Source: an uncultured Verrucomicrobiales bacterium
GTDB lineage: Bacteria > Verrucomicrobiota > Verrucomicrobiia > Verrucomicrobiales > DEV007
DNA length: 64,000 bases
Reading direction: 5' to 3'
Assembly: GCA_937922595.1 (NCBI GenBank)
Contig: CALAIY010000029.1
Location: 1-64,000, forward strand
Part shown: in pieces, positions 3,090 through 36,640 of the stretch
Numbering within the stretch: the stretch's first letter is position 1
Layout: every line of letters begins with the position of its first letter
Notes under the pieces: generated by a model
The model's input: the letters and a program-made list of their open reading frames with translations, nothing else
What the model was told of the DNA's origin: nothing
Databases searched by the model: none
Program-made: the position numbers and the translations under genes

Positions 3090-3692
3090 ATGATTCAATC
3101 TTTGGCGGTTTATTGTGGTTCGAGTACGGGCGCTGATTCGCGGTTCGTGGAGATGGCGAGTGCCCTTGGGGCGGTGATGGCAGAGCGAGAGGTGCGGCTG
3201 GTCTATGGTGGTGGTGGCGTGGGCTTGATGGGGGCGGTGGCGGATGCGGTGCTTGCGGGTGGGGGCGAGGTGATGGGGGTGATTCCGCAGTTTCTCCAGG
3301 ATAAGGAGCTCGGCCATAAGGGGGTGACGGAGATGGTGGTGGTGGAGACGATGCACGAGCGGAAGACGGCGATGATGGAGTATTCCGATGCATTTATTGC
3401 GCTGCCGGGCGGCTATGGGACTTTGGAGGAGCTTTTTGAAGTGCTGGCGTGGAGCCAGCTACAGCTGCATGCAAAACCGGTGGGGGTAATGAATGTGGGT
3501 GGCTATTATGATGGGCTGCTCACGTGTCTGGATCGGATGGTGTCGGATGGGCTTTTACGGCAGGCGGAGCGGGAGCGTCTCATTGCCTGTCCAAGCGCGG
3601 AGGGGGCGATGGATGCGCTTGCGGCTTGGAGTCCTCCAAAGTTAGCCAAGTGGGAAGATCCGGAATTTTGGACGGAGGGGGAGCTCCGGTAG
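3090..3692 (+). CDS. LOG-family nucleotide phosphoribohydrolase
   Basis: A 200-residue Rossmann-fold protein of the lysine-decarboxylase-like/LOG family (TIGR00730 type). It has the opening strand SLAVYCGSSTGAD, the VYGGGGVGLMGAVADA loop, and the diagnostic PGGYGTLEE motif. Characterised members cleave cytokinin riboside monophosphate or related nucleoside monophosphates to free base and ribose phosphate. In bacteria without cytokinins the physiological substrate is usually uncertain, and that applies here. Length is normal. It sits between the NlpC/P60 gene and the VWA gene, all on the plus strand with short gaps. Confidence 0.9.
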   Translation: MIQSLAVYCGSSTGADSRFVEMASALGAVMAEREVRLVYGGGGVGLMGAVADAVLAGGGEVMGVIPQFLQDKELGHKGVTEMVVVETMHERKTAMMEYSDAFIALPGGYGTLEELFEVLAWSQLQLHAKPVGVMNVGGYYDGLLTCLDRMVSDGLLRQAERERLIACPSAEGAMDALAAWSPPKLAKWEDPEFWTEGELR

Positions 3693-34794: not shown

Positions 34795-34875
34795 GCCGAC
34801 GTGGCGGAACGGTAGACGCGGCGGATTCAAAATCCGCTTCCTTCGGGAGTGCGGGTTCGATTCCCGCCGTCGGTA
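34795..34875 (+). tRNA. tRNA-Leu (anticodon CAA)
   Basis: The acceptor GCCGACG (34795-34801) pairs with CGTCGGT (34868-34874, one G-T), followed by discriminator A. The anticodon stem GCGGA/TCCGC encloses TTCAAAA, giving CAA. A variable arm with a CTTCGGGAG hairpin and a GGTTCGATTCC T-arm are present. CCA is not encoded. Confidence 0.96.
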
Positions 34876-35012
34876 CTTATTTGGAATAAACGAGTTAGGA
34901 ATTCAGGGGTCACACTCTAATTTTAGCCTTCTTCTTTACGTCTCTGGTAAAAGTCTAGCCAGTTAAAGATCTGAGACTCGTTTTGGTTGTTGTTGCTGTG
35001 GTCGGGGCATTT

Positions 35013-36449
35013 TTACTTTTTGAAGAGGGATTCCAGGAGGATTGTGGTGTCGGCGAGTTCTAGGGCGTAGGGGGTTTCTTTGATGCCTTGGGTGGTGATG
35101 AAGGTGTTGATGAGGCTTTTTTTTGTGCCGGTGTGCTGCAGGAAGGTTTCGCGGCGGGCGCGGAGGGTGGTGGCGTATTTTTTATCGATGATGAAGGGGG
35201 CTTCGGTGAATTTCATCTCGCAGAGGTTGATGCAGGAGTCGGCGCGGTCGATGAGGAGATCGATTTGGGTGCCGGTGTCTGATGGATTTTTGGGGCGGTG
35301 GATCCAGGAGGATGTTTCGGTGGATACGGCGGCGATTCCTAGGGCGGCTTTTATCTGGGGGAGGTGTTTCATGCAGAGTTCCTCGAAGGCGAGGCCGCTC
35401 CAGGCGCGCCAGGCGGGACGGGTGCGCATTTTTTGCCAACTGCCGGAGTCGGCGCGTGAGCGTTCGATCCATCGGAGGTAGAAGCGGGAGTATTCATCGG
35501 AGAGGCGGTAGAGGGTGTCTTTTTTCTTCTTTCCGAAGGGTAGGTAGCTGCGGATGAATCCGGACTCTTCGAGTTCGCTGATGAGGGTGGTGAGGCGACC
35601 GCTGCTGGGGAGGTTGGCTGCTGTGGCGACTTCGTGGTGGGTGAGCGATTTTTTTGCGAGAGCGCGGACGACGTTGATATGGCGCTCGGGTGAATCGAAG
35701 AGGGCGGGGTAGAGCAGATTGAATTCGTCGCGGAGTGGGGCGCCGGGCTCGAAGCAGATACGGTCGAGCGTTTGTGCGGGTGATTCTCCGCGTTTCACGA
35801 AGGTGAGGTAGTATGGGATGCCGCCGAGGGCCATATAGAGTTCGGCGATGCCCATGGGGGTGAGAGCGGTTTTCTTGTGTTGTAGGAATTCCTGGGTCTC
35901 GGCGAGGGTGAAGGGATCTAGGCGGATGCGGTGGGTGATGCGGTTGTGCAATCCTCCGCGGTCGTGGATGAATTTGCGGATCATCCATGAGGCTGCGGAT
36001 CCACAGACGATGAGGACAAGGTTTGGTCGCTTGGAGGCCCATGCGTTCCAGAAGTGGTCGAGGGCGGGGAGAAAGCGGGAGCGGGGGCTGGCGAGCCAGG
36101 GAAGCTCGTCGAGGAAAAGGACGTGCTTTTTGTTTTTTGGGAGGGTGGCGAACCACTCGGCGAGTTGGCTAAAGGCCGCTTTCCAGGATTTGGATGCGGT
36201 GCTGAATTTTCCGCCTGAGGCGAGGGAAAGGGCGCTGGTGAAGGTTTCCAGCTGCTCTTTGAGGGGGGCGTCTTTGGTGCCGGTGAGTTCAAAAATGAGC
36301 TGCGGCTCTAGGGCTTTGCGGATGAGATAAGTTTTCCCGACGCGGCGCCTGCCATAGACCGCGATGAATGCTGGGTCTCCAGAGGCGAGAATATCATCGA
36401 AGATTGCGCGCTCTCGGTGCCGCCCGATGAGTGGAGTGGGTGGTTTCAA
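35013..36449 (-). CDS. DUF234-type AAA+ ATPase
   Basis: A 478-residue ATPase of the archaeal-type/DUF234 group. The P-loop is GRRRVGKT (33-40) and the Walker B is FLDE (111-114). Sensor-like GSAASWMI and an HNRITHRIRLDPF segment follow. The middle has a winged-helix-like part (LTHHEVATAANL). The C-terminus (about 330-470) resembles the DUF234 domain, sometimes related to restriction-nuclease folds. Members occur in many archaea and bacteria, often as isolated or expanded genes with unclear roles. The only plausible start is TTG at 36449, as an in-frame TAA lies 18 bases upstream. An array of dyad repeats abuts and partly overlaps its 5' end. Codons end in C on the coding strand. Confidence 0.85.
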   Translation of the reverse strand: MKPPTPLIGRHRERAIFDDILASGDPAFIAVYGRRRVGKTYLIRKALEPQLIFELTGTKDAPLKEQLETFTSALSLASGGKFSTASKSWKAAFSQLAEWFATLPKNKKHVLFLDELPWLASPRSRFLPALDHFWNAWASKRPNLVLIVCGSAASWMIRKFIHDRGGLHNRITHRIRLDPFTLAETQEFLQHKKTALTPMGIAELYMALGGIPYYLTFVKRGESPAQTLDRICFEPGAPLRDEFNLLYPALFDSPERHINVVRALAKKSLTHHEVATAANLPSSGRLTTLISELEESGFIRSYLPFGKKKKDTLYRLSDEYSRFYLRWIERSRADSGSWQKMRTRPAWRAWSGLAFEELCMKHLPQIKAALGIAAVSTETSSWIHRPKNPSDTGTQIDLLIDRADSCINLCEMKFTEAPFIIDKKYATTLRARRETFLQHTGTKKSLINTFITTQGIKETPYALELADTTILLESLFKK

Positions 36450-36451
36450 AG

Positions 36452-36640
36452 TGGCGAAATCTTACCTGAAATGGATATATTTCGCCAGATATAAAATCTA
36501 TATTTGGCGAAATGTAGGTATTTTTAGAGGGATTTCGCCAAATATAGAAACTAACGCTATTCTTATTTGCTCACTTGAAGGATTCTATATTTGGCGAAAT
36601 GTGGGTGTTTTGGGGGCGATTTCGCCAAATATAGAATTCT
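36452..36640. repeat. Array of dyad repeats, arm ATTTCGCCAAATATAGA
   Basis: Six arms of the 17-base motif alternate in orientation in 189 bases. Inverted arms are at 36444-36460 (degenerate; the last 9 bases, TGGCGAAAT, are perfect), 36497-36513 and 36585-36600. Direct arms are at 36479-36495 (three changes), 36532-36548 and 36619-36635. Each inverted arm is followed by a direct arm at exactly 18 bases, three times, forming three dyad units (about 52 bases each). The first unit reaches the start codon of the ATPase gene. The last ends at the stop of the next gene (36639). No copy is seen at the other end of the ATPase gene. Confidence 0.9.

Follow-up and report, generated by a model that had tools for sequence, protein, structure and literature searches.

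Three tandem dyads fill the 189-nt gap (36452-36640) between the stop codon of an MRJP gene and the start of an ATPase-nuclease gene in the window, as we call the whole 64,000-nt stretch of DNA analyzed here. This array probably provides cognate operators for the adjacent ATPase gene, bound by the predicted winged helix of its own product for autoregulation. An autoregulatory operator array was among the possibilities raised in the first-pass annotation, and sequence comparisons favor it, since such dyads occur family-wide, are private to each gene, and coincide with or immediately precede promoters and start codons.

The dyad array and the adjacent ATPase-nuclease gene

The features discussed below are the following (window coordinates):
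35013..36449, minus strand: gene for a 478-aa protein with an AAA+ (STAND/ORC-like) ATPase, a winged helix, and a PD-(D/E)XK nuclease, TTG start; PDC-S27/PF01637
35502..35726, minus strand: predicted winged helix-turn-helix (AlphaFold secondary structure) spanning residues 242-316, which may read the dyads
35013..35444, minus strand: predicted PD-(D/E)XK nuclease domain, invariant E356, D397, and E411-x-K413
36452..36493, no strand: dyad 1 (gene-proximal), TGGCGAAAT - 18 nt - ATTTCGCCAGATATA, from the sequence
36497..36548, no strand: dyad 2, TCTATATTTGGCGAAAT - 18 nt - ATTTCGCCAAATATAGA, dyad score 17.0
36579..36640, no strand: dyad 3, AGGATTCTATATTTGGCGAAAT - 18 nt - ATTTCGCCAAATATAGAATTCT, dyad score 19.5

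The sequence confirms the three tandem dyads with 18-nt centers reported beside the ATPase start by the first-pass annotation. The six arms of a 17-base motif that it also described hold for dyads 2 and 3, which have the full 17 nt on both sides, but not for dyad 1, whose gene-side arm is degenerate and short (paired arms TGGCGAAAT, 36452-36460, and ATTTCGCCA, 36479-36487, separated by 18 nt), with the partner arm running on to 36493. As claimed, dyad 1 runs up to the TTG start codon at 36449, ending 2 nt from it. The arms of dyad 2 (36497-36513 and 36532-36548) are complementary at 17/17 positions, and those of dyad 3 (36579-36600 and 36619-36640) extend over 22 nt with 95% complementarity, the outer end reaching the MRJP stop codon. 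One of dyads 2 and 3 probably arose by duplication of the other, as they share 89% identity over 53 nt. Selection or duplication had been proposed as the origin of the repeated spacing; both appear true, given these near copies and an architecture conserved across the family. A scan of the whole 64-kb window for imperfect dyads with spacers of 3 to 30 nt found none scoring at least 13 beyond the array. A genome-wide motif search, suggested earlier as a check, argued against a generally repeated motif; the sole occurrence of the ATATTTGGCGAAAT-centered dyad in the 3.27-Mb assembly is the window array. No sigma-70-type promoter was found in this array. On the plus strand, the arms of the adjoining dyads 1 and 2 make a terminator-like stem with a T-run (36476-36516).

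The ATPase had been called DUF234-type; its Pfam match is PF01637 (ATPase_2), and DUF234 itself was not matched. PADLOC identified it as the candidate PDC-S27 (PDLC04984; E = 1.6e-184, 612 bits, residues 6-476 of 478). PDC-S27 is a single-gene phage-defense candidate combining an ATPase with PD-(D/E)XK, common in Archaea and Bacteria (3503 and 4562 counts, respectively), and validation of most PDCs is still pending (PMC12988326). The likeness consists of the whole-protein HMM match and of the fusion of the ATPase to a PD-(D/E)XK domain that retains its catalytic residues. Across 40 homologues, G33-T40 of Walker A, D114 and E115 of Walker B, and the nuclease residues E356, D397, E411, and K413 are all invariant. 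The AlphaFold model (pLDDT 82) comprises AAA+, a winged helix at about residues 242-316, and a PD-(D/E)XK core. The winged-helix region (helices 254-264, 271-277, and 284-295; strands 299-302 and 313-316) has relatives in Orc1/Cdc6 and PF01637 structures. A sequence search for a solved relative of the ATPase returned none. By structure, the best matches to the model are the archaeal PF01637 ATPases SSO1545 (2FNA) and PABY2304 (2QEN), with solved chains of 350-352 residues against 478 for the longer window protein, followed by Orc/Cdc6 initiators, NLRs, Apaf-1, MalT, and Avs3; these relatives include the DNA-binding Orc1/Cdc6 proteins and the transcriptional regulator MalT. Just past the 3' end of the ATPase gene lies a tRNA-Leu(CAA) gene (34795-34876); many relatives have a tRNA-Leu(CAG) gene after MRJP instead.

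Upstream dyads among homologues

Homologues were taken from whole genomes of the phylum, their starts were located, and the 200 nt before each start were scanned for the highest-scoring imperfect dyad, a score of at least 10 defining a strong dyad. This comparison, which the first-pass annotation had proposed for related ATPase genes, revealed strong upstream dyads in 76% of 83 distinct homologous genes, a sample that is not fully independent (it holds a few close orthologues) and in which start codons were inferred; 53% reach a score of 12. Neither outcome named by the first-pass annotation as refuting its reading, a general repetitive element or a lack of arrays at orthologous genes, was therefore obtained. 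Scores of at least 10 were obtained for 1% of dinucleotide shuffles, 0-4% of coding stretches, and 4.4% of the 136 genes that served as controls, taken from the window and the same loci. Related DUF4143 ATPases, also used as a control, have dyads in 23% of cases (n = 30), and the feature is thus much weaker there. About a quarter of the homologues have no clear upstream dyad, and the same is true of archaeal plasmid copies and of the copy in Wolbachia phage WO. This last copy (L247, MN180249.1, 1492-2955) is a 42%-identical PDC-S27 homologue located among head genes. A search of viral contigs with the single ATPase protein gave no match, and a profile search gave 10 loci.

Dyad centers lie at a median of 82 nt upstream of the start and mostly within about 120 nt. 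Many members have a strong promoter directly downstream of the tandem dyads (e.g., TTGACA-18-TATAAT in L138; also L137), some carry extra arms over the -35/-10 region (L086, L107, and L114), and in the window, L003, and L073 such arms abut the start codon. On average, dyads overlap predicted promoters no more than expected from their placement. Downstream of the gene, scores of at least 10 were found in 18% of the homologues, mainly close relatives; these downstream dyads are beyond what autoregulation alone explains.

Shared geometry and private motifs

Alignment of 35 subfamily-1 arrays on the dyad center revealed that pairing is confined mainly to positions about 9-22 bp from the center, within a common base frame of A at positions 9-11 (69-76%), G/C at 12-15, and A/T at 19-22. 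This spacing would set half-site centers about 31 bp, or three helical turns, apart. The core motif varies from gene to gene: it is TATATTTGGCGAAAT in the window and TATAAGTGGCCAAA, ACTTTTGACTATA, TGTCACATTATT, AACTTGACTAAATC, or others elsewhere. Protein pairs with at least 60% identity have similar motifs, and below 60% motif similarity is mostly at background; motif and protein are co-inherited and co-vary, as expected for operators. Domain-resolved co-variation, with few informative pairs, did not attribute motif similarity to the winged helix over other domains. An ATPase with 42% identity on an Emticicia plasmid (Bacteroidota; L238) is accompanied by ATTATATTTGGCGGAAT-18-ATTCCGCCAAGTATAAT, nearly the motif and center of the window.

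Exclusivity was assessed by pattern searches, and in these the sites proved specific to the gene of their putative regulator, another property expected of operators. The genome of the window (G000, the 3.27-Mb assembly) is unusually rich in such ATPase genes and related ones, with 14 DUF4143 and 8 PF01637 matches. Five paralogues in it have five different motifs, each limited to its own locus save for single two-mismatch matches; the genome-wide check of the motif of paralogue C108, TGTCATTTAGTCGCCC, supports this exclusivity. All 14 exact matches to TATAAGTGGCCAAA in 49 genomes lie in dyads flanking an ATPase gene or, in G003, an ATPase remnant. Likewise, 9/9 matches to ACTTTTGACTATA in 18 genomes adjoin ATPases. 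Six belong to known carriers; the other three mark a new locus found by the motif alone, about 110 nt from the start of an ATPase that shares 72% identity with a known carrier. The window 17-mer has 43 exact matches in 85,000 species genomes, near the estimated chance number, none of which stands beside a relative of the window ATPase or has a matching dyad.

Probable operators and alternative roles of the arrays

In the operator arrangement that we infer, the winged helix would read a half-site of about 14 bp with an AT-rich outer edge, a gene-specific core usually containing GC, and an A-rich inner edge. Two subunits of the ATPase itself would bind in inverted orientation at the ~31-bp spacing, and tandem dyads would accommodate several cooperatively bound dimers that adjoin or cover the promoter and start codon. 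The ATPase would in this way set its own low level, with repression thought likelier than activation, and its specificity would drift along with the protein, giving each gene lineage its own motif.

It is improbable that the dyads instead delimit a mobile element of one gene, with the ATPase-nuclease recognizing both ends and moving a 1.5-1.7-kb cassette. Genes bracketed by dyads on both sides do exist (G256, G015, G033, G319, G307, and the window genome's own paralogue C108), and the remnant in G003 (L196, C39, 6903-7230) retains both dyads and only the last 77 codons of the ATPase, directly after an intact hsdM. The ATPases are, moreover, patchily distributed, three genera have them within type I restriction loci, and the PtsI-MRJP pair is present without the ATPase in members of the window's own family, so that the ATPase gene was probably gained here. 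However, eight dyad-bracketed copies have no target-site duplications, the 49 genomes searched with TATAAGTGGCCAAA have no dyad-only copies and not more than one copy each, downstream dyads are missing in most members, the window gene included, and the ATPase has no transposase or recombinase fold. Nor was a clean empty site found, either at the G003 restriction locus or at the window site searched via MRJP; relatives lack the ATPase at the latter, but without giving an exact boundary. The small non-autonomous mobile repeat envisaged by the first-pass annotation, i.e., a dispersed repeat or MITE, was rejected, as dyad copies were not found away from ATPases in the genomes searched; of the marks of an insertion sequence or MITE, neither multiple dispersed copies nor target-site duplication was observed, and the window gene has no downstream terminal inverted repeat. 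Taken together, downstream dyads, the G003 remnant, duplicated hsdM 5' ends, and siting in restriction loci suggest mobility or a wider role. One such locus (L194, G033:C70, 1-3537) contains an intact hsdM start (from ~299 leftwards) and two further hsdM 5' fragments (1894-2254 and 3390-3537), which flank the ATPase and an adjacent gene pair resembling, by eye, a RES/Xre-type toxin-antitoxin, as if modules had been inserted repeatedly ahead of hsdM. In G319 (L195), an hsdM 5' fragment lies on the other side of the ATPase. A non-ATPase gene of L194 also has a perfect 17-nt dyad (AGGGAATAGATCTCTCT, 21-nt center), upstream of 5437 on the minus strand.

Equally doubtful is that the array mainly serves the ATPase-nuclease as a substrate or tether (a self-site, decoy, or scaffold for the inactive state) rather than as a promoter operator; the DNA-bound form would be held off, and cleavage would follow its release or its ATP-driven assembly on DNA. 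The first-pass annotation had listed a site recognized by the nuclease-like C-terminus of the ATPase, and the array might be a site cut by that nuclease. The invariance of nuclease and ATPase residues, arrays that reach four or more arms and sometimes stand at both gene ends, the structural likeness of the model to Avs3, NLRs, and similar STAND sensors, and the defense-candidate status of the ATPase all fit such a role, whereas the location of dyads just upstream of promoters or starts in most members fits regulation. A related speculation, to which we give little weight, is that each ATPase-nuclease is parked inactive on its private array as a tag, that release or ATP-driven assembly after infection frees the nuclease, and that the tags insulate paralogues from one another. 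Stems of 14-22 bp enclosing 18-nt loops ahead of the start, together with one terminator-like structure on the strand opposite to the ATPase gene, could also recall RNA hairpins in a 5' leader (an attenuator or guide-like RNA), which we consider very unlikely. Mismatches between arms are G-U in 54 cases and A-C in 43, and this lack of a G-U excess favors duplex DNA over RNA; base identity is conserved beyond pairing and is common to direct copies, and in many members the best promoter stands on the gene side of the dyads, which would therefore be absent from the transcript. Least credible is that the ATPase is an Orc1/Cdc6-like initiator with the array as its origin, or that the array is a centromere, the partition-like function listed in the first-pass annotation. 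Orc1/Cdc6 proteins are among the closest folds to the model, and haloarchaeal orc/cdc6 genes adjoin linkage-specific ORB repeats (PMC3528665). Several single genomes nevertheless hold 11-22 homologous ATPase matches each (up to 17-22 in one genome), and such numbers disfavor both functions. Coarse GC skew has no origin-like switch confined to the array site, and no ParA/ParB partner was seen beside the ATPase gene. Despite the similarity of fold, Pfam assigns the protein to PF01637 and a nuclease domain is present; to our knowledge, Orc1/Cdc6 proteins have no intact nuclease domain.

Returning to cognate operators, no description of a cis-acting DNA element for the PDC-S27 family was found in the literature searched, which covered a minority of subscription papers. 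By analogy, the nearest conceptual precedents would be the ORB repeats of orc/cdc6 genes (PMC3528665) and the control of a restriction island by RptR (PMC12255303). Haloarchaeal orc/cdc6 origins resemble the present case in that an AAA+/winged-helix gene stands beside family-private repeats conserved only among close homologues; in contrast, the window ATPase belongs to another family, has a nuclease domain, and occurs in many unrelated copies per genome with repeats by the promoter, and its array gives no sign of origin function (PMC3528665). RptR of a type I restriction defense island likewise involves tandem repeats in a promoter bound by the controlling protein; it is, however, a small stand-alone regulator whose one short palindrome is conserved, whereas the putative regulator here is the ATPase-nuclease itself and motifs differ from gene to gene (PMC12255303). 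The alternating inverted repeats next to a gene possibly acting on them are also reminiscent of BIME/REP-RAYT systems. Unlike those, the window repeats have no dispersed genomic copies, and the ATPase is not a Y1 transposase.

What appears new is the association of gene-linked, private putative operators with a large uncharacterized family of defense candidates, in which the effector may be its own regulator. A private site beside the gene offers a handle on these proteins, as it predicts the DNA bound by a PDC-S27 protein, and the private motifs would make a winged-helix specificity code readable from sequence. The DNA motif alone can predict family members, as was done once here at the new ACTTTTGACTATA locus. 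Finally, private motifs suggest how several paralogues may share one cell without cross-talk.
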